Positions 33,762 to 64,000 of a DNA stretch of 64,000 bases are shown piece by piece. Within the stretch, counting starts at the first letter, position 1. Every line of letters starts with the position of its first letter. A program made the position numbers and the translations under genes. Location of the stretch: positions 11,606 through 75,605 of the forward strand of contig JACPAV010000028.1 of NCBI GenBank assembly GCA_016180645.1, read 5' to 3'. The stretch comes from Nitrospirota bacterium (GTDB taxonomy: Bacteria; JACPQY01). The notes below the pieces were generated by a model that did no database searches, was not told the origin of the DNA, and saw nothing but the letters and a program-made list of their open reading frames with translations.

Positions 33762-33826
33762 CGCAGGCATGAAGCCTGCGCCTACCACGGATCCGAAATG
33801 CTGGTAGCCGCGGGCTTTAGCCCGCG
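33762..33826. repeat. REP-like inverted hairpin pair, CGCAGGC/CGCGGGC family, copy 1
   Basis: Hairpin CGCAGGC-ATGAA-GCCTGCG ends in CCTAC; after an 18-nt spacer a second unit starts GTAG with hairpin CGCGGGC-TTTA-GCCCGCG. The mirror arrangement with the same 18-nt spacer occurs at 36354-36418. Confidence 0.85.
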
Positions 33827-36353: not shown

Positions 36354-36418
36354 CGCGGGCTGAAGCCCGCGGCTACCAAGGATTCCTTTCCGAGGTAGGC
36401 GCAGGCTTCAGCCTGCGG
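36354..36418. repeat. REP-like inverted hairpin pair, CGCGGGC/CGCAGGC family, copy 2
   Basis: CGCGGGC-TGAA-GCCCGCG followed by GCTAC, an 18-nt spacer, then GTAG and CGCAGGC-TTCA-GCCTGCG. It matches the family at 33762-33826 in mirror orientation, so the HAD-to-helical-protein block is bracketed by it. Confidence 0.85.
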
Positions 36419-49289: not shown

Positions 49290-50478
49290 GGTACGTCTTG
49301 GACCGTGATTCCAAGCGGTCGCCGCGCACGAGGAGATATTCCCCGAAGTGCTCGGCCGGTTCCCCGGACTTGGCCGGGCGGAAGAACACGGGATCGCCCA
49401 GGCGGAGTTTCAACCCTCCGGACACCAGGAGAGGCGTTTGAACCTCGCCGGCTCCTTCGCGCCGAAGGAGCCGCAACCCTTCGGGGAGCCAGGGGAGCGG
49501 GAGTCGATCCGGACCCGGTTCGCCGGAGGCGATGATGCCCCCACCGTGACAAGTAATCATCCCCGGCGCCGGGCGTCGAACCGCTTGGAGGGCGAAAAAG
49601 AGGGCGGGATCCACCGAGAGTCCGCGATAGTGGTCGAACAGGTGACCCGCCAGAAACCCGGAGCCCGCGGTGATCTCCGTGAGAGAGGGATCGTTCGCGC
49701 TCCACTCCAGGCTGCCCGTTCCGCCGCCGTTCACCACGGTCGGCGTCAATCCCAGGATTTTCAACCGCTCGATCACGCGATGCCGCGCCTCCTCCACCTG
49801 GCGCCGTGACGCGCGTTTCATGGCGCGAACGAGCTTTCGCCGCAAGGCTGAACCGGTTTCGGGCACCCCGGCAATTTGAGATTCGTACGCCATAAGGCCG
49901 TGAAATCGGAGATGGGGGGATTCGTTCAGCCGGGCGGCGAACTCGGCGATCTCTTCGGGGGAGCGCAACGGACTGCGGCGAACACCGATGTGGATCCGGC
50001 TGCGCAGAGGCCTCCATGCCATGTCCAGTTCGACCACGAGGGGGATGGTGGCCCCGGCCCGCTGTCCTGCCGCGCTGAGGGCGGCAAGCTGTTCGGGTGA
50101 GTCCGCAACGACGGCGGCGGGAACGCCCGATCCGTTCAGACGCGCGAGGACGTCCGCGTCGTCCGCCCGAGCCGTCGGATAGGCCAGGAGGAAATCGGTG
50201 AAACCCTGCTCCGCAAGAAAGGCGGTTTCGGCGGCGGTGTACGTCATGAGGCCTTTCACGGCGCCTGCGCCTCGGTTGAGCACCCGTCGAAGAAGATCCA
50301 CGCATCGGAACGATTTCGAGGCGACTCGGAGCGTCTTGCCGCCCGCTCGGGCGAGGCCCGCCAGGCGATCCACGTTGGACTCGAACGCCCCAAGATCCAC
50401 GAGCGCAAGGCTGAGGGGTTCATCGGCGACGACGCGTCGGAACCGCTCCCATTTGTCCCGGCGGTTTTCGGTGGCCAT
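49261..50478 (-). CDS. PLP fold-III amino acid deaminase/aldolase (DSD1/D-threonine aldolase-like)
   Basis: A 405-residue enzyme with an alanine-racemase-type TIM barrel: the Schiff-base lysine is in LRVASKSFRC, then VKGLMTYTAAETAFLAEQG, VVELDMAWRP and TVVNGGGTGSLEW. The C-terminal beta domain has MITCHGGGIIASG and GDPVFFRPAKSGEPAEHFGEYLLVRGD. This is the D-serine dehydratase/D-threonine aldolase-like family of beta-hydroxy-D-amino acid enzymes. First gene of an operon with the M19 dipeptidase and the exported hydrolase. Confidence 0.85.
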   Translation of the reverse strand: MATENRRDKWERFRRVVADEPLSLALVDLGAFESNVDRLAGLARAGGKTLRVASKSFRCVDLLRRVLNRGAGAVKGLMTYTAAETAFLAEQGFTDFLLAYPTARADDADVLARLNGSGVPAAVVADSPEQLAALSAAGQRAGATIPLVVELDMAWRPLRSRIHIGVRRSPLRSPEEIAEFAARLNESPHLRFHGLMAYESQIAGVPETGSALRRKLVRAMKRASRRQVEEARHRVIERLKILGLTPTVVNGGGTGSLEWSANDPSLTEITAGSGFLAGHLFDHYRGLSVDPALFFALQAVRRPAPGMITCHGGGIIASGEPGPDRLPLPWLPEGLRLLRREGAGEVQTPLLVSGGLKLRLGDPVFFRPAKSGEPAEHFGEYLLVRGDRLESRSKTYRGFGKSFLG

Positions 50479-50561
50479 CCGACGGCGAAGCCTATCCTAT
50501 TGACGGGCCAAAGGATACGTCAGGGGCATCATTTCCGCTGGCCTCCACGATCAGGCCCTGC

Positions 50562-50567
50562 TAGCAT
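50562..50567 (+). promoter_or_regulatory. Extended -10 (TGCTAGCAT) of the saccharopine-dehydrogenase-like gene
   Basis: The hexamer TAGCAT with the TG extension ends 9 nt before the ATG at 50577. No Shine-Dalgarno is present between. Confidence 0.5.
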
Positions 50568-50576
50568 CGCCGCACT

Positions 50577-51695
50577 ATGAAGATCATTGTCATGGGTGGC
50601 GCGGGCGACATGGGGAGCCGCGCGGTGGAGGACTTGGCTTCTTCGAAAGGAGTCGCACGGGTCACGATAGCCGACCGGAATGCCGCCGCCGCGGAGAAAA
50701 TCAAATCCAGTCTGGCCGGAAAATCGGCCAAGGTCGAGGTCAAGGCGGTTGACGCCAACGACCACACGGCGCTCGTGAAAGCGATGAAGGGGCATGACGT
50801 GGTCGCTTCCGCCCTCGGACCGTTCTTCATGTTCGAAGCGAAGCTCGTGCGGGCGGCCATCGAGGCAGGAGTGAACTACGCGAGCATTTGTGACGAGGCG
50901 GATGCCGCCGAGGCCGTGTTCCGGGATTTCGACGTCGATGCGCGGAAGAAGCGCGTGACCGTCCTCACGGGCTTGGGGGCGAGTCCGGGCTTGTCCAATG
51001 TAGGCGTCCGGTTCATGTCCAAAGAAGTCGGCCGGATCAAGAAAGCCGAAATCTACGTCTACCAGCCTTTGGACGCCGGAGGAGGCGAAGCGGTCATTCG
51101 CCACATGCTCCACATCATGACGGGGAAGGTGGTGGCTTGGAGAGGCGGACGGAAAGTCACGGTTCGCGCATGCAGCCGGTCCAAGATCGTCGAGTTTCCG
51201 AAGTACGGCCGTGTCAAGCTGTGGAACATGGGGCACAGCGAGCCGTACACCGTTCCGCGCTATTTCTACGGCATCGAAGAAGTGGGGTTCTACATGGGCT
51301 ACGGCAAAGGGGCCGAATTTCTGGTGTGGCCCGCGCGCGCCGGTCTCTTCCTGAACAAGCGGGTGACCGATGCCACGGTCCGGCTGCTACTGAGGTTGGA
51401 GGGCATGGACAAAAACAAGGAGCCGGGCTGGGGTGCCATCCGGATCGATGTCTGGGGCGAGAAGAAAGGCAAGGAGGAGCACCGGATGCTCTGCGGCATC
51501 GGTCAGATGCGAGAGGCTACGGGGCTGTCTCTCTCCATCGGCGCGCAACTTCTGGGAGAGAAAAAGCTACTCACGAAAGAGGGCGGCGTCTACGCGCCCG
51601 AGGGTTGCCTCGATCCGCAGGATTTCATCCGCCGCATGAAAGACCGCGGCCAACTCGCCTATGCCGACCTCGCCATGACCCAGCCGTTAGCATAA
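50577..51695 (+). CDS. Saccharopine dehydrogenase-like NAD(P)-binding oxidoreductase
   Basis: A 372-residue protein with an N-terminal Rossmann fold (IIVMGGAGDMGSRAVEDLA, VTIADRNAAAAEKI, DVVASALGPFF) and a saccharopine-dehydrogenase-type C-terminal half with TGLGASPGLSNVGVRFM and WGAIRIDVWGEKKG. Relatives act on amino-acid conjugates, carboxynorspermidine or lysine intermediates, but many are of unknown substrate. Its stop lies in the left arm of a REP palindrome shared with the convergent amidase gene. Confidence 0.82.
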   Translation: MKIIVMGGAGDMGSRAVEDLASSKGVARVTIADRNAAAAEKIKSSLAGKSAKVEVKAVDANDHTALVKAMKGHDVVASALGPFFMFEAKLVRAAIEAGVNYASICDEADAAEAVFRDFDVDARKKRVTVLTGLGASPGLSNVGVRFMSKEVGRIKKAEIYVYQPLDAGGGEAVIRHMLHIMTGKVVAWRGGRKVTVRACSRSKIVEFPKYGRVKLWNMGHSEPYTVPRYFYGIEEVGFYMGYGKGAEFLVWPARAGLFLNKRVTDATVRLLLRLEGMDKNKEPGWGAIRIDVWGEKKGKEEHRMLCGIGQMREATGLSLSIGAQLLGEKKLLTKEGGVYAPEGCLDPQDFIRRMKDRGQLAYADLAMTQPLA

Positions 51696-51747
51696 TCGGT
51701 GACAGTATACTTTATTACCTGCGAATAGAGTATACTGTCACCGATTA
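51693..51747. repeat. RAYT-type palindromic repeat, solo copy, acting as a shared terminator
   Basis: Two 24-nt arms (51693-51716 and 51724-51747) separated by 7 nt form a hairpin with one mismatch. The inner arm GTGACAGTATAC matches the ends of the RAYT element at 60 kb. The outermost TAA/TTA of the arms are the stop codons of both flanking convergent genes. Confidence 0.9.
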
Positions 51748-53184
51748 TACGGCGAGTTTCGGCGGGACCCAGCCGCCGAAGGCGCGTTCGAGTTCGAGGG
51801 CGACGGCAATGGTGAGATGATCGTGGCCGGGGAGGGAGGCGACTTGAACACCGAGCGGGAGTCCTGCCTTGTTCAGTCCGAGGGGTGTCTGCGTGGAAGG
51901 CATCTCCATCACGTTCAGAATTGGCGTGTACAACCAGTGGAACGGGTATCGCATCGGAACGCGATGTTTCAGAGCAGGGAACGGATACGACGGATAGAGC
52001 ATCACTCCGTTCGGGCCGAGTTCACGCTTGAGCTCCTCTTTGAGTTCGCGACCGATTTGAAGAGCTTTCTCCGCTCTCTTGGGCATCCATTTCGGAATGC
52101 GTTCGAGCGCGGCCAAAGCGATGGCGGGAAATGTATGTTTGGATCGACCGACTAAAGATTTGATCAGTTCAGGGAGCGGACGGAAAGGTTTTCCATCGCC
52201 GAGCATCTCGGTGAAGGTCAGTCCGCCGGACGCGTTCAGCATCGCCCCCCATATCTCGAGTGTCTTCTTGAGGCCTTCGAACCGGGTGGAGCGGACCTTG
52301 GCCCCGCGCTGGGCAAGGTGCTCGGCGCATTTCGCCTGCGCCTCGCGGAGATCCGGACTCACCTTCAGGATTCCGTTGTTCTCCACGTTGAGGACGGTCA
52401 AACCCTTGATCTGGACTTTCGTCGGATCACCCAGCTTGAACGGCCTGCACTCAGAGTCTTTTCCGTCCGGTCCCGCCAGAATTCGCAGAACGGGCATGAG
52501 GTCCTCCGCCTTTCGGGCCAGCGGTCCCGTCGTCACATAGCGCAGCGCTTCATTGGAAGGGATAGGGAACTGGCCTGTTCCCGGCACGAGTCCGCCCGTC
52601 GGTTTGTGCCCGAACACGCCGTTGAAAAACGCCGGCATCCGAATCGATCCCGCGATGTCGGAGCCAAGCCCGAACGGCGTGCCGCCCGCGCTGATGATCG
52701 CGCCTTCGCCTCCCGAGCTTCCGCCTACGATTCGCCTTGGATCGTAAGCGTTGTTCGTGCGCCCGTAGATGGTGTTGTGGGTCTCCATCCACATGCAGAG
52801 TTCGGGAACATTGGTGATGCCCAACGGAATCGCGCCGGCTTTTCGCAGTCGGGCCACCGTGGTCGCATCACTCTTCTGAATGTCGTTCCTCCGCGAATAC
52901 AGCCCGCCCGTCCGCGGAAATCCCTCCACGCTGAAACATTCCTTGATCGTGCAGGGAACGCCGAGGAGGGGCGCGGCCTTTCCATCGGAGGCGCGGACCC
53001 GGCGATCTGCTTCTTTGGCCTCTTTTCGGGCCTCCTCGAATCGATTTCCGACGACGGCATTCAGCACGGGATTGACCTTCTCGATCTGGCGGATGTGGGC
53101 GTCCACGACCTCGGCGGAACTGACTTTGCGCTTGCGAATCATGTCGGCCAACGTGAGCGCTGATGCCTTCAAAAGATCGTCCAT
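51745..53184 (-). CDS. Amidase signature family hydrolase
   Basis: A 479-residue amidase. The catalytic Lys is in VPCTIKECFSVEG, the Gly/Ser-rich core is RRIVGGSSGGEGAIISAGG (cis-Ser), and the nucleophile Ser is in GSDIAGSIRMPAFFNGVFG. HKPTGG and TGPLARKAEDL follow. Close to fatty-acid amide hydrolase and 6-aminohexanoate-type amidases by length and motif layout. The C-terminal LGLNKAGLPLGVQVASLPGHD is complete. The substrate is unknown. Confidence 0.9.
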   Translation of the reverse strand: MDDLLKASALTLADMIRKRKVSSAEVVDAHIRQIEKVNPVLNAVVGNRFEEARKEAKEADRRVRASDGKAAPLLGVPCTIKECFSVEGFPRTGGLYSRRNDIQKSDATTVARLRKAGAIPLGITNVPELCMWMETHNTIYGRTNNAYDPRRIVGGSSGGEGAIISAGGTPFGLGSDIAGSIRMPAFFNGVFGHKPTGGLVPGTGQFPIPSNEALRYVTTGPLARKAEDLMPVLRILAGPDGKDSECRPFKLGDPTKVQIKGLTVLNVENNGILKVSPDLREAQAKCAEHLAQRGAKVRSTRFEGLKKTLEIWGAMLNASGGLTFTEMLGDGKPFRPLPELIKSLVGRSKHTFPAIALAALERIPKWMPKRAEKALQIGRELKEELKRELGPNGVMLYPSYPFPALKHRVPMRYPFHWLYTPILNVMEMPSTQTPLGLNKAGLPLGVQVASLPGHDHLTIAVALELERAFGGWVPPKLAV

Positions 53185-53242
53185 ACGGCTTTCCTTCCAT
53201 GCCGTTCTATGCGATGTCTACCCCTTGTTGCAAGGAAGAAAA

Positions 53243-54061
53243 ATGGACGAAGCGAAAGTGGTGTTGATTACCGGGGCGTCGTCCGGATTTGGGAAACTGA
53301 CGGCCGAGCTGCTGGCGGAGAGGGGATTCAAAGTGTTCGGGACGAGCCGCAAACCGCAATCATCCTCACCGACGGGCGCCCTTGTGATGCTGAAGCTCGA
53401 CGTCTGCTCCGATGAATCCGTGGCCGCGTGCGTCCGATCGGTTCTCGACTGCGCCGGCCGGATCGACGCCTTGGTCAACAACGCAGGATATCAATTGGTC
53501 GGCGCGCTCGAAGAAACTTCGTTGGAGGAGGCGAAGGCTCAGTTCGAAACCAACTTCTTCGGCGTCGTCCGCATGGTGAATGCGGTTCTTCCCATCATGC
53601 GGAAGCAGCGAGAGGGAACCATCGTGAACGTGGGATCGCTGGCCGGACTCATGAGCAGTCCTTTCTCGGGCTTTTACACGGCGACGAAGTTTGCCTTGGA
53701 GGGCTACTCGGAAACTTTGCGCAACGAAGTCCGGCCGTTCGGCGTCCGCGTAGCACTCGTCGAACCGGGTTTCTTCAAGACTCCGATCACCGATGCCATG
53801 AGAGAGGCCGCCCAACGCCTCGATGCGTATTCCGCCCATCGGAACTCTGCCGTGGCGGTGACGCGCCGTTCCCAACAATCAGGTCCGGGTCCGGAAGCGG
53901 TCGCCCAGACGATCCTGGCCATCCTGGAGCGATCCAATCCGAAGTTGCGCCATCGGGTGGGGTTGGATTCCAAAGTTCTTCCGGTGCTTAAAGCGGTCTT
54001 GCCCGCACCGCTGGTCGAGTGGGGCACGCGGGTCAACTTCGGGCTGAACCGAAAACCATGA
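53243..54061 (+). CDS. Short-chain dehydrogenase/reductase
   Basis: A 272-residue classical SDR: VVLITGASSGFGKLTAELL (cofactor), LVNNAGYQLVGAL, and the active site IVNVGSLAGL with YTATKFALEGYSE (YxxxK). The C-terminal VALVEPGFFKTPI is normal. Substrate side sequence is not specific; oxidoreductases of this type modify ketones or sterols. Chosen start ATG 53243. The stop overlaps the MMPL start (ATGA), so it is coupled to that transporter. Confidence 0.88.
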   Translation: MDEAKVVLITGASSGFGKLTAELLAERGFKVFGTSRKPQSSSPTGALVMLKLDVCSDESVAACVRSVLDCAGRIDALVNNAGYQLVGALEETSLEEAKAQFETNFFGVVRMVNAVLPIMRKQREGTIVNVGSLAGLMSSPFSGFYTATKFALEGYSETLRNEVRPFGVRVALVEPGFFKTPITDAMREAAQRLDAYSAHRNSAVAVTRRSQQSGPGPEAVAQTILAILERSNPKLRHRVGLDSKVLPVLKAVLPAPLVEWGTRVNFGLNRKP

Positions 54062-56501
54062 GAGATTTCCAGGACCGCAGCGAAGCCCTCCTCATCCGTT
54101 TCCGGTGGGCCGTCCTCGCGATCTTCGCGGTGCTCACCGCCGTTTTGGGCTATTACTCGTACCACACGAAGACCAACAACGATTTCGAGGCGTGGCTCCC
54201 CGAGCATGACAGTGTCGTCAAATCGTACAAAGAGGTCGAAGCGAAATTCTCCGCCCATACGGTCGCCGTCGTTCTCCTTGATGTAGGGGATGCGTTTTCG
54301 GAGTCTTCGCTGGAAACGTTGCAGCGTGTGACGCAGCGATTGGCCGAGGTCAAAGGCGTTGCTCGCACACTCAGTCTGACGAACGCGATCGATCTGCGCC
54401 TGGAGGGCGAAACCATCCACGCCGGGCGACTCATCGAGCGTCTCCGCCGGCGCGATCAAATCGACGCCGTGCGGCGAGACGTTCTGACGAACGATCTGTA
54501 CCGCGGCACGCTCGTTTCGAACGACGCGCGCTACGTCACCGTCGTGGTCTCGCTGGACGCGGAGGCCGACGACGTCGCCGTGGCCGCTGAACTTTACAAG
54601 ATCCTGGACGGCATGAAGCTGTCCGCCCCCTACTATCTGGCGGGGGACCCCGCCTACACCCATTTTTCCGATGTCTACATCCAAAAGGACATGAAGGGTC
54701 TGGTGCCTTACGCCATCGGCGCGATGGTCCTTGTTTTCTGGCTCGGATTCAAGAAGCTGAAGTGGGTGCCGTATCCCATCGTGGGCGCCCTCATCAGTAT
54801 CTTCTGGCTCTATGGCCTGAAAACTCTCACGGGCGGAACGATCAATGTGCTTACACCCGGTGTCATGCTCATCCTGCTCGTCACGGCGTCGGACTACTCG
54901 GTCTATTCGGTCAATTATTATCGACAGCAGGGCACGACCAAGGGAATCCATCGTGCCCTTGGAAATCCGCTCTTCTTCTCCTGCCTTACCACCGTGGCGG
55001 GGCTCATGTCCTACACCACCACGGACATCTGGGTCCTGAAGGATTTCGGATACTCCGTTTCGATCGGACTCGCCATCGGCTTCATCGTGAGCTTGGGATT
55101 CGTTCCGGCCATCTTCGGCCCGAAGGTGATCGCTCCCGCTCCCGAATCGAACAATGTGGCCGGGTGGACGCGGGTGAGCGAGAAAGTCATGCGCTGGTGC
55201 CTGGGTCATCGCTGGAGCCTGTTGCTCGCGTCGGTGGCGGCCGGCGCCATCATGATCCCCCAGATGCGGAAGCTCCAGACGAGAACGACGATCTCGGAAA
55301 TTCTGGCTCCCGATTCGCCTCCGCTCAAGGCCGGCGAGATTCTTAACAAGGAATTCACCGGGGCGTATCCCGTTCTCTTCTACATCAAGGGCGATCTCAC
55401 GGATCCGATCACGCTTCGCGCAATGATGCGCGCGGAGAATTTCCTGAGGAACCTTCCGGAAGTCGGCGGCGTGGTTTCTCCCGCGAGCCTCGTGGGTGAA
55501 ACTCGGCGCCTCCTTACCGATTCATACGGCATACCGGCCACCGGGCGGGAGGCGCACGCGATGTATTTCTTTCTCGAAGGCGACCCCTACGTCGAGTCAC
55601 TGGTCGATCCCGAGCACGAGCACGGATTGGTCCTGGGGTACGTGCGGGCGGTGGATACGCAGCAGGTCGGCCGATTGGCGGATGTGTTGGCGGACTATCT
55701 CAAGTCCGAGATGTCCGAACCCTGGGTTGAAGTGGATACACGACTCCTTCCCGGCAACATGGGGCCGCTGGTGCGCAACGCCGCCGTTCGATGGATTGAG
55801 CAGGAAAGGCTTTGGCTCCTGCGCGGACCGGAGCCCGGCTACCCGGAGACTCTGAAACGGCTGGGCGCTCTGGAAAGGGAGGGCGCGGGCACGCTCTTCA
55901 GAGTGCCGCGGAGCGTGGTCGAACCGATTTTGAAGGGCGGAGGACCCGTCCGGATGGCCGGATTCGAGGCCATCCAGACGGGCTATCCCATTCTGACGAA
56001 ACGCCTGGAGCAGCTCCTTCTTTCAAGCCAGAAACAAAGCATTGCCATCGCGTCCATCGCCGTGCTTATTCTGCTGACGATCTCCGTTCGCTCGGCCAAG
56101 ATCGCGCTGATCGGAATGGTGCCGGTCCTCTTTCCACTCGCCCTTGCGCTGGGGCTCATGGGCTTCCTCGGCATCCCGATCGACTTTGGGACCGTTCTCC
56201 TTGGAGGGATCACCCTGGGTCTGGGCGTCGATGGCGCGATCCACGTGCTTTCCTCCGTGAAAGCGAAAATCGGGGAAGGGCAACCGTTCGATGAGGCCAT
56301 GATAGCCACCACCAAGACGGTCGGCCGTTCGTTCTTCATGGCCACAGCCTCCACGCTGGCGGGATTTCTGATCCTGGCCTTTTCCGAGATCAAAACGGCG
56401 TCCAATCTCGCGGTGACCTGCGGTCTCGGCATCTCGCTCGTCATGCTGGCCGTTCTGTTCCTCCTGCCTGCTCTCATGCCATTCGTTCTCAAGCCAAGGC
56501 G

Positions 56502-56505
<4 letters not shown>
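54058..56505 (+). CDS. MMPL/RND-family transporter
   Basis: An 815-residue membrane transporter with two halves, each with an N-terminal helix, a large periplasmic loop and a sterol-sensing-type bundle. Examples are FRWAVLAIFAVLTAVLG and LVPYAIGAMVLVFWLGF, with GVMLILLVTASDYSVYSVNYYR, FFSCLTTVAGLMSY, then IAIASIAVLILLTISV and GGITLGLGVDGAIHVLSSV in the second half. Proteins of this type export lipids, hopanoids or drugs. It is coupled to the SDR upstream (ATGA) and the phosphatase downstream (TTGA). Confidence 0.9.
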
Positions 56506-56978
<473 letters not shown>

Positions 56979-57024
56979 CGCTCCGTGCCGTTGGCGGTAG
57001 CATCACCCCTCTGGAGGTGATCAC

Positions 57025-60000
57025 ATGCCAAGATCAAGCCGCTTTTCCATTGCTTTTGGAGCTGTTTTCGTTGCCGCCGCGATGGGCGTGGCGCTGTGGA
57101 CCTGCTCCGATTCGGAAGACAAATCCGCAAGCTCGGTACGCGTCGAGTTTGACCTCGACAAACTGATTGGTCCGACCGAGGGCACCGGGGCCGGCGCGAA
57201 GAAGATCACCTCCGAATCCGACCTGATCGGCGGCGAGGCGGCCCAGGGACGTGTGGGCGACACCCTCCTCCAGAACGACAAGATCCGCGTCATCATTCAA
57301 CAGCCGGACCGCAACATCGGCCCGGGCCCATTCGGCGGCAACATCATCGACGGCGACATTGTGCGAAGCGATGGAAAAGGACAGGACGTGATCGGCGAGA
57401 TCTCCGTGTTCTTCAATCTGGGGCGGACGGTGGATGCGAAAACCGTGGAGGTCGTTCGCGATGGCTCCAAGGGCGGCGCGGCCGTGGTGGCTGCAACCGG
57501 GCCGGATGAAGTGCTGGACTACCTCAACATCCGCTCCGTGGTGTCCTCGTATCTCCCCGGCCTGGGGGACTCACTCCCCGTCAATCCGGACGAGGATATG
57601 CCGCTCACGATCACGAACTACTACATTCTGAAGCCCGGCGATTCCGCGGTGCGATTCGTCACCGCGATTCATAATGAAGGGTCCACCGATCAGATCCTCC
57701 TTGCCGGCGATCTGCTCGACAGCGGCGGGACGGTCGAGTTCTTCAACCCCTCGTCCACGCTCGCGGGTTTCGGCTACAAAACGGCCATCCCCGAGAAAAT
57801 GAATTTCCTCGGCTTCCGCGGAAAACAGTCCTCGTACGCGTATGCTCCACCGCTCAAGGACGGCAAGGAGAACGCGGCCTATCTGGCCATCAGCGGAGTG
57901 GCCGGCACCGTCATCGGCACCGTCAACGTCATCCAGACCCTGCTCTCTCCACCGCCGCTCAGAGCCTCCACCGAGGGCGCCCTGGTCGTTCCGGCAGGCG
58001 GCACGGCTTCCTACGAGAGATGGGTCGCCGTGGGAACCGGCTCGCTCAGCACCGTGACCGATGCCCTTTACTCGGCCCGCCAGATCCCGACCGGCCAGGT
58101 TGAAGGAACGGTCGCCGATTCGAGCGGATCGGCGCTGGCCGGAGTTCGCGTTTCTGCAATCAATAATCTCGGCGCCGCGGTTACGCAGTTCCTCAGCGAT
58201 GCAAGCGGCAAGTTCAGCGGCACGCTCCCGGCGGGCACGTACTCCCTGTCCGCCCAGGTCCCGGGTCGGCTCGTCACTCAAAAGGGTTCAGTGACCGTGA
58301 GTCCAGGAGCGGTCACCGCCGGAAAAGTGGTCCTCTCCAAGCTGACCCAGGTGAGCGTAAATATCGCCTCGCCGGGCGGGACGGCGCTCCCCGGAAAGGT
58401 TTCTTTCCTCTGTGCGGACACCTGTCCGGAAGAGAAATCCTCCCAACTGCGCGACATCTCGTACGACTCCGTCGGCGACCCGATCTTCCAGCAGGATTTC
58501 ATCGACAATTCGGGAAAGGCCACCGTGGCCGTCGCGCCTGGGACCTACAAAGTGGTCGTCTCCCGCGGCATCACGTACTCCCTCTGGCCGAACGATTTCC
58601 GCTGGAACGGCGACGTGAGCAAGTCCGGCGGCTACGATCTCACCCTTGCCGAGGGCGAAACGAAAAGCGTCGCGGCAACCCTCGCGAAGGTGGTCGACAC
58701 GTCGGAATACCTCTCGGGCGATTTCCACGTCCACGCGATCAATTCGCCGGACAGCCCGGTGCCGAACCTCGAGCGGGTGATCACTTTTCTCGGGGAAGGC
58801 GTGGATGTCCTCGTCTCCTCCGATCACGACTATGTGACCGATTTTGCACCGACGGTGAAGGACCTGAACGCCGGGTCGTATCTCGCCACCATCGTGGGGA
58901 ACGAACTCACCACGTTCGACTACGGCCATTTCAACGGGTTTCCCGTGCAGGTGAAAGCGGGCAGCATCAACGGTGGCGCGTTCGATTGGGGCGGAGGAAC
59001 GGGGCCGAGCGCGCATCCCGGTGCGATCTTCGAGCAGTTCCTCGCGGAACCGGGGGAACAGGTGGTGCAGGTGAATCACCCGGACTGGGGCTACTTCAAA
59101 TACATCCTGCTTGACGTGAAATCCGGCGCGACGGCCGAGAAACCGTCCAAATTCAGAATGGCCGATCCGGAGGGTTCCACGTCCGCCGACACCAAGCTCC
59201 TAAGCGAGAAGTTCAACGCCATCGAGCTATACAACGGCTTCGACGCCAAGCGATTCAATGTGTGCGCGAACTGGTGGCTGGGTTTGATCAACCGGGGCGT
59301 CGTTACGACCGGCACGGCGGTGTCCGACACGCATCAGTGGCGCGCGACTCAGAGCGGCTTTCCGCGGAGCTACATCCGCGTCGGAGCGGGCAAGGACAAG
59401 ATCAGCCCGTTTGACGAAGCCGCTTTCGTGGCGGCCACGAACGCGCACCGGCTCTTTGGAACGAACGGTCCCTTCGTGCGACTTCACGCCGCGAACGCCA
59501 AGGGTGAGAAAGTGGAAACGGGCGATACCCTCGCGTCCGGCGGAAGTGGACAGACAATCACGTTCACTGTGGAAGTTCAGACCCCCGCCTGGTTCAAGGT
59601 GAACAAGGTGGATTTGATCTCAAACGTGACCGATACGATCCCCGCGGCGGGCAAGACCAACGACCAATCACCGAAACCGCTGGCCACGCAGGAGGTGAAG
59701 CTCACCGATGCCGATCTTCAAGCGGGCGCGGAAGGCGGGGCGGACTACAAGCGCTACGTCGCGACCGTAACATTCACCGATGCGCCGCAGAAGGACAGCT
59801 ACTACGTTGCGCTCGTCAGTGGCGAAGGGAATCTGTATCCGGTGGTGACCGATTCGGTCGCTCCGTTCGCCTTCACCAATCCGGTTTTCGTGGACGTGAA
59901 CGGCGGAGGCTGGAAACCGATGGTCTCGCGCCAAGCCCCGCCCCGCTGGGCGCCTGAAGTTCTGGCCCGCGTGAATCCCGCCAAACGCCAGGCCACCGAA

Positions 60001-60045
60001 GCCGACTTCTGGGCCCTCGTCAAGATCGCCCAGACGATCAAGTAG
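57025..60045 (+). CDS. CehA/McbA-type PHP-domain exported protein with carboxypeptidase-regulatory-like domain
   Basis: A 1006-residue protein with an N-terminal signal ending near WTCSDSED. About 355-430 is a CarboxypepD_reg-type beta domain (GQVEGTVADSSGSALAGVRV). From about 560 is a PHP-type metallohydrolase: YLSGDFHVHAINS (His568, His570), VSSDHDYVTDF (His601), GNELTTFDYGHFNGF, VNHPDWGYF, AIELYNGFD and AVSDTHQW, all expected metal ligands of CehA/McbA esterase-like enzymes. A strong Shine-Dalgarno, GGAGGTGAT, precedes the ATG. Substrate unknown; relatives hydrolyse carbamate or phosphoester bonds. Confidence 0.85.
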   Translation: MPRSSRFSIAFGAVFVAAAMGVALWTCSDSEDKSASSVRVEFDLDKLIGPTEGTGAGAKKITSESDLIGGEAAQGRVGDTLLQNDKIRVIIQQPDRNIGPGPFGGNIIDGDIVRSDGKGQDVIGEISVFFNLGRTVDAKTVEVVRDGSKGGAAVVAATGPDEVLDYLNIRSVVSSYLPGLGDSLPVNPDEDMPLTITNYYILKPGDSAVRFVTAIHNEGSTDQILLAGDLLDSGGTVEFFNPSSTLAGFGYKTAIPEKMNFLGFRGKQSSYAYAPPLKDGKENAAYLAISGVAGTVIGTVNVIQTLLSPPPLRASTEGALVVPAGGTASYERWVAVGTGSLSTVTDALYSARQIPTGQVEGTVADSSGSALAGVRVSAINNLGAAVTQFLSDASGKFSGTLPAGTYSLSAQVPGRLVTQKGSVTVSPGAVTAGKVVLSKLTQVSVNIASPGGTALPGKVSFLCADTCPEEKSSQLRDISYDSVGDPIFQQDFIDNSGKATVAVAPGTYKVVVSRGITYSLWPNDFRWNGDVSKSGGYDLTLAEGETKSVAATLAKVVDTSEYLSGDFHVHAINSPDSPVPNLERVITFLGEGVDVLVSSDHDYVTDFAPTVKDLNAGSYLATIVGNELTTFDYGHFNGFPVQVKAGSINGGAFDWGGGTGPSAHPGAIFEQFLAEPGEQVVQVNHPDWGYFKYILLDVKSGATAEKPSKFRMADPEGSTSADTKLLSEKFNAIELYNGFDAKRFNVCANWWLGLINRGVVTTGTAVSDTHQWRATQSGFPRSYIRVGAGKDKISPFDEAAFVAATNAHRLFGTNGPFVRLHAANAKGEKVETGDTLASGGSGQTITFTVEVQTPAWFKVNKVDLISNVTDTIPAAGKTNDQSPKPLATQEVKLTDADLQAGAEGGADYKRYVATVTFTDAPQKDSYYVALVSGEGNLYPVVTDSVAPFAFTNPVFVDVNGGGWKPMVSRQAPPRWAPEVLARVNPAKRQATEADFWALVKIAQTIK

Positions 60046-60069
60046 GGGAATTAAAGGTGACAGTATACT

Positions 60070-60756
60070 CTATTTCTTGGCCCGTCGGCCGCGCGGTCGG
60101 CCCTTCGGCCAGCCGCGTTTGCGCGGGAGGAGGACCCGCCCGAGCTTCTTCTCCCACCGCCTGACCCAGACCAGGTCACCCAAGGGGCGACCCGTCCGTC
60201 CACTCGTGCGAATCCCTTCCAACTCGGCGGGATTCTCTTCGCCCTTCAGGAACGCCGCCCAATCGGATTCCATTTCGCGGAACGGGCTGGACTTTACCAA
60301 GCGGTCGGGTTCCCCCGTCGCATGATGCCGGGCACTGGACCATCGGTGGTCTTGGGCGCGCTTCACCATCCCCGCCCGCACCGGGTTTCGCTCCACGTAC
60401 CGCGCCACGGCCAGAAGATGTCGGTCCTTCTCGATGGGGAAGGAATGGAATCGCTCCTGGAAGAGGTGGCCTCGAACACCCTCCCGGAGGTTGACTCGAA
60501 GCGTGTACTGGCGATGGGTCTCGCCGATCGCCCGCGCCAGGGAATCGGCACGGCCGGGCACGACGAGCAAGTGAATGTGGTTGGTCATCAGGCACCACGC
60601 CCAGATTTCCAAATTGTGCTGGGACGCCGATTCGGCCAGGAGATCGAGGTAGATCAAACGGTCCTTGTCCGAATGGAAGAGTTGAATGGAGCGGACCCCT
60701 CTCTGAATCACATGGTGAGGGGCACCAGGGACGACCACGCGAGCCAATCGCGACAT
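60070..60756 (-). CDS. REP-associated tyrosine transposase (RAYT, Y1_Tnp)
   Basis: A 228-residue HUH single-strand transposase. The N-terminus LARVVVPGAPHHVIQRGV is typical of the family, followed by the HUH motif in CLMTNHIHLLVVPGR, the catalytic Tyr in VARYVERNPVRAGMV, and DHRWSSARHH. The basic C-terminal tail (RKRGWPKGRPRGRRAKK) is common. ATG 60756 gives the family N-terminus. RAYTs cleave at REP palindromes and are thought to disperse them; its own stop is inside the left repeat. Confidence 0.93.
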   Translation of the reverse strand: MSRLARVVVPGAPHHVIQRGVRSIQLFHSDKDRLIYLDLLAESASQHNLEIWAWCLMTNHIHLLVVPGRADSLARAIGETHRQYTLRVNLREGVRGHLFQERFHSFPIEKDRHLLAVARYVERNPVRAGMVKRAQDHRWSSARHHATGEPDRLVKSSPFREMESDWAAFLKGEENPAELEGIRTSGRTGRPLGDLVWVRRWEKKLGRVLLPRKRGWPKGRPRGRRAKK

Positions 60757-60803
60757 GAGGCGGATCGTAGGGCGGGTCGCGGCCGCTGTCAAGAGCTATT
60801 CAT

Positions 60804-60819
60804 GTATACTGTCACCGAT
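60804..60819. repeat. Partial RAYT-type repeat, extra copy
   Basis: GTATACTGTCACCGAT in the same orientation as the right terminal repeat, lying inside the element upstream of the transposase start. It ends 22 bp before the full right repeat. Confidence 0.7.
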
Positions 60820-60961
60820 CATCCTGCTGCGGGGGTTAAGCAAATAGAGTATACTGTCACCGAATATATAAGGACGACCCGGGGAGTCCACATGAATTGA
60901 CCGCCGTCATGTTTTGGTGGCGAATCGGATGGCATCCTGCCCGGCGTATGCGAGAGACAAG

Positions 60962-62209
60962 ATGAGCCAAACAGGTGCCGAGGCCGAGTCGGTCTCCGCG
61001 GCATCGGCGAGAAAGGTCAGGTTTGGAGCCGGATCCAAGATGGCGCCGAAGGGAATCCTCCGCCAGCCGCCCGTGAGCTTCGACCATGCGCCGTTCATGG
61101 TCATCTGGGAAATCACGAGGGCTTGCGATCTCTCCTGTGTTCACTGTCGAGCCCAGGCCGAACCCGCCGGCCTCCCGAATCAGCTCGCCCCCGAGGAGGG
61201 TGAGGCGCTTCTGAAAACGATTTCCACCTTCGGGACGCCGCGTTCCCTCGTGATTCTGACCGGGGGCGACCCGTTCAAGCGCTCCGATGTGTTCCATCTG
61301 GTGAAATACGGCCGCGATCTCGGGCTCACCATGGCCGTGTCGCCTGCGGGCACGCCGCTGTTGACACGAGAAAATCTCACGCGGCTGAAGAAGGCCGGCG
61401 CCGGATCGATCTCGCTCTCGCTCGACGCCTCCACGCTTGATGCCCACGACGCCTTCCGCGGTGTCCCCGGTGTCTTCGAGAAGACCCTTGCGGGTTGGGA
61501 TGTGTGCAACTCGATCGTCCTCCCCGTGCAGATCAATACGACGGTCAACCGGAGAAACCTCCTCGATCTCCCGAACATCTTCCGGCTCGTGCAGAGCAAG
61601 GGGGCGATGACGTGGAGCCTGTTCTTCCTCGTGCCGATGGGTCGCGCGAAGAAGACGGACGACCTCACCGGGCAGCAGTACGAGGACGCGATGAATTTTC
61701 TGTACGACTGCTCAAAGTATGTTTCCGCCAAACACACGGAGGGGCATCATTTCAAACGCGTAGTGCTCCAACGCATGGCGGCGGAGAGGGGCGAGCCCAA
61801 GCTCGGCGAGCCGCCGGCGGTGGGACCAGCGTACCTCAAGCTGCGCTCGGACCTGGACCGCATCGTCGAAGAGGCACACATCAAGCCGAAAAAGGATGGG
61901 GTGGTCCGCCCGCCGCTCAACATCAACGCGGGCAAAGGTTTCGTCTTCATTTCGAGCACGGGCGACGTCTTCCCGTCGGGATTCCTTCCGATGCGCGTCG
62001 GAAACGTCCGCAGGGAATCCCTTGTGGATCTATACCGCGATCACCCCACATTTCGCGATCTCCGCAACCCCGATAAACTCAAGGGGAAGTGCGGGCAGTG
62101 CAACTTCAGGCAGTGGTGCGGAGGCTCGCGTTCACGCTCCTTCGCCTACACCGGTGATCCCTTCGCCGCCGAACCGCGCTGCATCTATCAGCCCCCTGCC
62201 GCATCCTGA
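60962..62209 (+). CDS. Radical SAM/SPASM protein (AhbD / TIGR04053-like)
   Basis: A 415-residue radical SAM enzyme. The [4Fe-4S]-SAM motif is WEITRACDLSCVHCRA, then ILTGGDPFKRSDV, ISLSLDASTLDAHDAFRGVPG and VNRRNLLDLPN. A C-terminal SPASM domain supplies further Cys in KGKCGQCNFRQWCGG and AEPRCIYQ. Relatives include the heme-synthesis enzyme AhbD and TIGR04053 proteins; the exact role is not fixed by sequence. The start is uncertain: TTG 60914, GTG 60917 and ATG 60929, 60962 and 61040 are in frame; 60962 is used. Confidence 0.85.
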   Translation: MSQTGAEAESVSAASARKVRFGAGSKMAPKGILRQPPVSFDHAPFMVIWEITRACDLSCVHCRAQAEPAGLPNQLAPEEGEALLKTISTFGTPRSLVILTGGDPFKRSDVFHLVKYGRDLGLTMAVSPAGTPLLTRENLTRLKKAGAGSISLSLDASTLDAHDAFRGVPGVFEKTLAGWDVCNSIVLPVQINTTVNRRNLLDLPNIFRLVQSKGAMTWSLFFLVPMGRAKKTDDLTGQQYEDAMNFLYDCSKYVSAKHTEGHHFKRVVLQRMAAERGEPKLGEPPAVGPAYLKLRSDLDRIVEEAHIKPKKDGVVRPPLNINAGKGFVFISSTGDVFPSGFLPMRVGNVRRESLVDLYRDHPTFRDLRNPDKLKGKCGQCNFRQWCGGSRSRSFAYTGDPFAAEPRCIYQPPAAS

Positions 62210-63784: not shown

Positions 63785-63905
63785 GCCCGCCCGACGGGGT
63801 CCGGGGTCTCCTTCGCCCATTTCGGACGGCCACCCCGTTTCCCCAATGTCCTGACCTTAGCTCGACTTTTGCCATTTTTTGAAAGGTTTATGTTGGTCCT
63901 TATGC
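63785..63905. other. Short gene-free stretch before the terminal repeats
   Basis: No coding frame or clear promoter was seen. It has a C-rich run followed by AT-rich TTTTTGAAAGG-like sequence; nothing beyond that can be supported. Confidence 0.5.
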
Positions 63906-64000
63906 GTAGGGGAGGGTCTTCAGACCCTCCCGACAAGAGGGAGCAAGTAGGGGAGGGTCTTCAGACCCTCCCGACAAGAGGGAGCATCTGAAGATGCTCC
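63906..64000. repeat. REP-like tandem hairpins, cut by the window end
   Basis: Two 41-bp direct units (period 41), each GTAGG with stem GGGAGGGTCT/AGACCCTCCC followed by CGACAAGAGGGAGCAA, then a third hairpin of the form GGAGCATCT-GA-AGATGCTCC. Same GTAG design as 19260-19316 and 35639-35755. The array continues beyond base 64000. Confidence 0.88.

Follow-up and report, generated by a model that had tools for sequence, protein, structure and literature searches.

A RAYT-like transposase gene with non-GTAG terminal repeats and its probable REPIN-like satellite population in a Nitrospirota genome

Introduction

The window analysed here, meaning the whole 64,000-nucleotide stretch of a Nitrospirota contig, contains a gene for a REP-associated tyrosine transposase (RAYT) bounded by inverted repeats without the GTAG head, and the locus raises the question of which DNA such a protein would recognise. 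In vitro cleavage has been demonstrated for cognate GTAG REPs (PMC8266576), and the region of E. coli TnpA-REP that contacts GTAG includes W94, Q95, E100, H101 and R104 (PMC6006769). Repeats of another kind were described by Di Nocera et al. in 2013, who named TIRYT genes and TIRtron units with GGGGWSAS-type repeats and dimer families; the motif is common to some of the published TIRs and not to all (PMC3733652). As such TIRs beside RAYT-like genes were already published at that time, a core different from GTAG is not new in kind. Quentin et al. later placed 20 of 26 published TIRYTs in subclass 2.1, with a C-terminal HTH (2018; PMC6006769). In the literature searched, no TIRYT with a tested DNA substrate was found, and the cited biochemistry covers GTAG REP systems only.

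The RAYT unit and its protein

The left (3'-side) terminal inverted repeat, GGTGACAGTATACTCTATTT, occupies positions 60056–60075 of the plus strand, and the right outer repeat at 60842–60861 (minus strand) is its exact inverted copy (20 of 20 positions), with 766 nt between the two. The unit starts 10 bp past the stop codon of the upstream gene, and the stop codon of the RAYT gene itself (TAG, 60070–60072, minus strand) sits within the left repeat; an earlier sequence-only reading had thus described both the perfect bounding repeats and the placement of the stop correctly. The same reading took a third, partial copy as a sign of past rearrangement, which did not hold. This right inner repeat (GGTGACAGTATAC, 60804–60816, minus strand) begins 60 bp upstream of the RAYT ATG, and in 23 of 24 relatives the upstream repeat is found at 51–59 bp; lying close to this conserved, standard position, it is the usual upstream repeat of such genes, not a remnant of rearrangement. 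The additional copy at the unit is the outer right repeat, not the inner one.

The coding sequence (60070–60756, minus strand; identified by Pfam, alignment and AlphaFold) specifies 228 aa, and its proposed identity as a REP-type tyrosine transposase was borne out by a match to Pfam Y1_Tnp (E 8.8e-10). Despite a score below the curated equivalog cut-off of NCBIfam REP_Tyr_transpos (72 bits, E 4.7e-20; cut-off 80 bits), the protein is, judged by its sequence, a clear relative of that family. The HUH motif takes the form HIH (residues 60–62) and the putative catalytic Tyr120 lies within YVERNP, and the hallmark of the RAYT superfamily (TnpA-Y1 class 2), HUH together with a Y---NP motif, is present; H60, H62, Y120 and P125 are invariant in a 27-sequence RAYT alignment. 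The catalytic residues are intact, as is the HUH fold in a confident AlphaFold model (pLDDT 89). The best match of the model among solved structures was E. coli TnpA-REP (4er8; Z 15.8, rmsd 2.9 over 159 residues), and the IS608 and ISDra2 transposases of IS200/IS605 share the HUH/Y1 transposase fold but scored well below it (Z under 10). A PDB sequence search with the protein alone gave no match, and with a profile it gave 4er8 only. No HTH was found in a Pfam search of the window protein at E<=1, in contrast to a paralogue on contig C34 of the same genome (Bac_DnaA_C, E 0.006).

A promoter is predicted by consensus match at 60764–60792 (minus strand), with TTGACA at 60792–60787, a spacer of 17 and TACGAT at 60769–60764, 7 nt before the ATG. 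Across the upstream regions compared (loci L047–L088 and window positions 60757–60816), a good sigma-70-like promoter lies immediately inward of the upstream repeat in most RAYT relatives, with TTGACA, a spacer of 16–18 and a -10-like box ending 6–8 nt before the ATG. From this layout the transcript is predicted to have little or no leader, and the repeat would abut the -35 region.

A probable recognition site other than the GTAG hairpin

The non-GTAG ends had earlier been read as a sign that the recognised site may differ, and both protein and DNA add weight to this. In an alignment that is gapless up to the catalytic Tyr, the window protein keeps only Q95 of the five residues with which E. 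coli TnpA-REP reads GTAG, and has F for W94, S for E100, F for H101 and E for R104. Two Y1 proteins encoded on contig C5 of the same genome, which adjoin GTAG hairpins, carry W, Q, D, H and R at these positions (L035, G000:C5:35110; L036, G000:C5:105800). A single arm of the window family, unlike a REP, does not fold (0 kcal/mol, no hairpin), and a single-arm hairpin is thereby ruled out. The window protein has the same fold and HUH/Y1 active site as E. coli TnpA-REP of the GTAG REPtron (4er8; PMC8266576), but its unit ends in GGTGACAGTATAC and has no GTAG-adjoining REP hairpin. The site recognised by the window RAYT probably differs from the GTAG hairpin, and to judge from these residues and repeats, GTAG and non-GTAG kinds coexist in one genome.

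Three more RAYT-like genes of this genome (L031, L033 and L037, on G000 contigs C34, C32 and C37) are open frames of 315–341 aa with terminal inverted repeats that differ from those above (TGGGGTCAAGTCTTGA, TGGGGTCAAGGCTTTACTTGACA and GGGACGTTGTTAGT; TGGGGTCAAG... is also listed among them). Classic GTAG REP dimers are present in the window at 33762–33826, 36354–36417 and about 63900–64000 (GGTAGCCGCGGGCTTTAGCCCGCG; GTAGGGGAGGGTCTTCAGACCCTCCC), the last-listed type being common to G001, the family's one other sequenced genome, with identity up to 96–100%.

A dispersed family of arm pairs

The genome-wide count that the sequence-only reading had proposed covered 4.72 Mb in 65 contigs and returned 60 exact copies of GGTGACAGTATAC (29 on one strand, 31 on the other), with none for the reversed-sequence control; when up to three mismatches were allowed in the 19-mer, 67 copies were found. 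The window itself holds five exact 13-mers against 0.24 expected even with two mismatches allowed, and these window and genome counts together rule out a chance origin. Beyond the RAYT gene, which is single copy in the genome, the repeat is present at 37 sites, all of them fetched, comprising 31 head-to-head pairs (mostly 44–45 bp long) and 6 single arms. The repeat is therefore a dispersed family and not confined to the RAYT gene.

Two of the five window copies lie apart from the RAYT gene and form a 45-bp, putatively non-autonomous head-to-head pair at 51698–51742 between two convergent genes, both of which have their stop codons (TAA) within the outer flanks of the arms. Together with its outer pairing (51690–51750), this pair folds into one hairpin of -21.5 kcal/mol as DNA. 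The arm consensus is about 20 nt long (ATAANNGGTGACAGTATACT), and within it a block, GGTGACAGTATACT, is near-invariant across 62 arms. Outside the arm core there is a weaker ATAATC-like block, with A in 58 of 62 arms at -6 and T in 60 of 62 at -5, and the inner side carries a variable C/T-TATT; similarity ends at about -8. The arm cores are 97.5% identical in pairwise comparison, against 26% for the outside flanks and 43% for the 7-nt centres (34% expected), which leaves the ends fixed, the spacing nearly fixed and the centre sequence nearly free, and the 31 pairs occupy unrelated sites. Near-random centres between near-invariant arms are odd for recent copies and suggest either old copies under selection or a centre-less copying route. 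Two pairs 812 bp apart on contig C49 (G000 C49:28045 and C49:28857; L127 and L128) have near-identical centres (TCGACCC and TCGACAC), and are the clearest hint of a pair copied from a neighbouring pair.

Whole pairs fold into long hairpins (-21.5 to -26.4 kcal/mol as DNA, z about -12 to -14). The outer eight bases match more often within than between elements (181 vs 157 +/- 4.5; 0 of 5000 shuffles), and a separate count of two-sided changes in 21 equal-length pairs gave 14 where 6.8 were expected (0 of 500). This outer-flank co-variation is genuine though modest in size, since pairing is lacking in a quarter of the outer cells, and at the inner bases +14 to +19 no co-variation was found. An Rfam search of window positions 50000–62000 returned no known RNA family. 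An unrelated, near-perfect palindrome of 45 bp (GGGGCCAATGCTGAATGTTGA...) lies in a convergent gap (L194:4406–4450, G000:C13) and was found at no other fetched locus.

Relatives of the protein and of the repeat

The proteins closest to the window RAYT (64–67%) come from an Omnitrophota MAG and a Planctomycetales MAG, and the three were grouped together in the tree with support of 100/99; the next relatives, with identities of about 50%, come mostly from Desulfuromonadia and allied groups. In G001, the exact 13-mer has 0 copies and the best RAYT-like protein is only 36% identical over its full length. The repeat being absent from the family's other genome, the protein there so dissimilar and the nearest proteins in other phyla, the window RAYT gene was probably acquired horizontally.

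Relatives in several phyla have GG[GT]GACA-type repeats beside the RAYT gene with cores of their own (TATAC, TATAT, TGCAC, TTTAC, TTCAC, TAACC), and most relatives outside Alphaproteobacteria carry exact GGGGACAG; a literature text search for elements with GGGGACAG returned nothing beyond a PCR primer. Among 25 related RAYTs, repeat similarity was correlated with protein similarity (Mantel r=0.70, 0 of 5000 permutations), a value partly confounded by shared host ancestry. Such co-divergence of repeat and protein is what one would expect if the two form a cognate pair of enzyme and substrate. Head-to-head pairs were also found in the genome of a gammaproteobacterial relative, where co-variation of the flanks was not evident by eye, without counting.

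Discussion

The locus is very probably a TIRYT/TIRtron, a RAYT associated with TIRs, that is accompanied by a satellite population resembling REPINs. The HUH/Y1 protein, which is encoded by a single gene copy, would recognise the arm of about 20 nt in single-stranded DNA, Tyr120 would nick at the arm, and the strands would be rejoined; as a guess, the AG...CT in the AGTATACT core could play the part that AG has in GTAG and guide cleavage at CT. We infer that the arm pairs are mobile: they would spread in trans as non-autonomous elements, as has been proposed for RAYT/REPIN (PMC3116915), the moving unit being the arm pair, which would travel as a single-stranded hairpin. The placement of the pairs at gene ends would then reflect the survival of harmless insertions.

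That placement can also be read as domestication, in which the host, however the pairs originally spread, now keeps them between convergent genes as bidirectional transcription terminators or as hairpins at the 3' ends of mRNAs, an explanation that is compatible with the TIRYT reading. The gene context of the 37 sites was assigned with a simple codon-usage gene caller, by which the neighbouring genes converge at 22 sites, are in tandem at 12 and diverge at 3, and no site falls within a gene; of the non-coding bases in the same stretches, 12% belong to convergent gaps, so that the enrichment has a binomial p of 1.6e-11. The distance to the closest stop codon is typically 7 bp and for most sites within about 20 bp, and 15 gene ends have their stop inside an arm, either as TGA of GGTGA (10) or as TAA of the outer ATAATC (5). 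The convergent enrichment and the stops in or near the arms are in line with domestication, as are the co-varying outer flanks, the saturated centres with invariant arms, which suggest site-by-site selection, and the rarity of a canonical hairpin with T-run at the other gene ends examined. However, the stem of the pairs is not followed by a T-run, by which a canonical intrinsic terminator is ruled out, and the sites in tandem and divergent gaps do not fit a role between convergent genes. The core is moreover conserved far past the needs of pairing while the inner stem does not co-vary, and the same arms bound a transposase gene, at which a short hairpin of this kind does not form. REPs, which are thought to be mobile, likewise accumulate downstream of genes (PMC3733652). 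Domestication is an unlikely explanation of the family. A host role for the pairs, given the saturated centres, the paired outer flank and the stops supplied by the arms, has an equally small or slightly smaller chance of being correct, at the lower end of which we place the more far-reaching version, namely genome-wide host gene-end modules that would supply stops, insulate convergent transcripts and be selected site by site while the centre drifts to randomness.

The matching of the outer eight bases within elements would also be obtained if pairs inserted into the centre of pre-existing AT-rich palindromes (giving flanks such as TATAATC/GATTATA), but the outer flank has a strong consensus of its own at -6 and -5, and the AT at these positions is also present at the three arms of the RAYT gene itself. 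A comparison with orthologues in G001, a genome too distant for base-level empty sites, covered four gene ends. The G001 proteins, without the element, terminate no more than a few codons from the corresponding position (with the element and in G001, respectively: ...EAADNR* and ...EAAG*; ...LRNLQHNR* and ...LRNLPRS*; ...TQPLA* and ...TKPLE*; ...PPKLAV* and ...PPPGG*). At these ends the flank supplies last codons or stops that are absent from the G001 orthologues, where no such AT palindrome is found, and insertion into palindromes is accordingly very unlikely. Less probable still is that the whole unit (TIR-gene-TIR) is an active insertion sequence with the pairs as internal-deletion MITEs, which would account for the perfect 20-bp ends and for the ends common to unit and pairs, but the gene is single copy, no target duplication is apparent at the unit or the pairs, and the pair centres hold no trace of the gene.

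Returning to the TIRYT reading, the window unit resembles the published TIRtrons (PMC3733652) in that a RAYT-like Y1 gene is enclosed by terminal inverted repeats with no relation to GTAG REPs, and in its moderately abundant dispersed repeats that occur as singles and dimers. Its head, GGTGACAG, is GGGGWSAS-like, fitting seven of the eight positions and differing at the third base, and it lacks a Pfam-recognisable HTH, unlike the subclass 2.1 TIRYTs with their DnaA_C or HTH-like C-terminus (PMC6006769); these two features place it as a TIRYT-type system outside the typical subclass. The co-variation of the outer flanks and the stops supplied by the arms were not found in the accessible portion of PMC3733652. 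With REPINs (PMC3116915) the family shares two invariant inverted ends, a spacer constrained in length more than in sequence, hairpin potential and many copies, and apparently also compensatory changes and a cognate RAYT. In contrast to REPINs, the arm by itself forms no REP hairpin and lacks the GTAG head, the compensatory changes lie outside the invariant block and not in the spacer, and there are about 31 pairs here compared to 101 GI REPINs aligned in SBW25 (PMC3116915). From IS200/IS605 the unit differs, beyond the weaker structural match, in its lone arm without subterminal hairpin and its single-copy gene.

The locus is clearly a well-populated new example of the known TIRYT type, from a little-sampled bacterial lineage. 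It provides a compact test case within one genome, with one TIRYT, the dispersed repeat predicted to be its substrate, and two transposases flanked by GTAG REPs, which provide internal controls and from which the TIRYT differs at specific residues of the segment that reads GTAG. The family would also be an example of a short transposon-derived palindrome settling precisely at gene ends.
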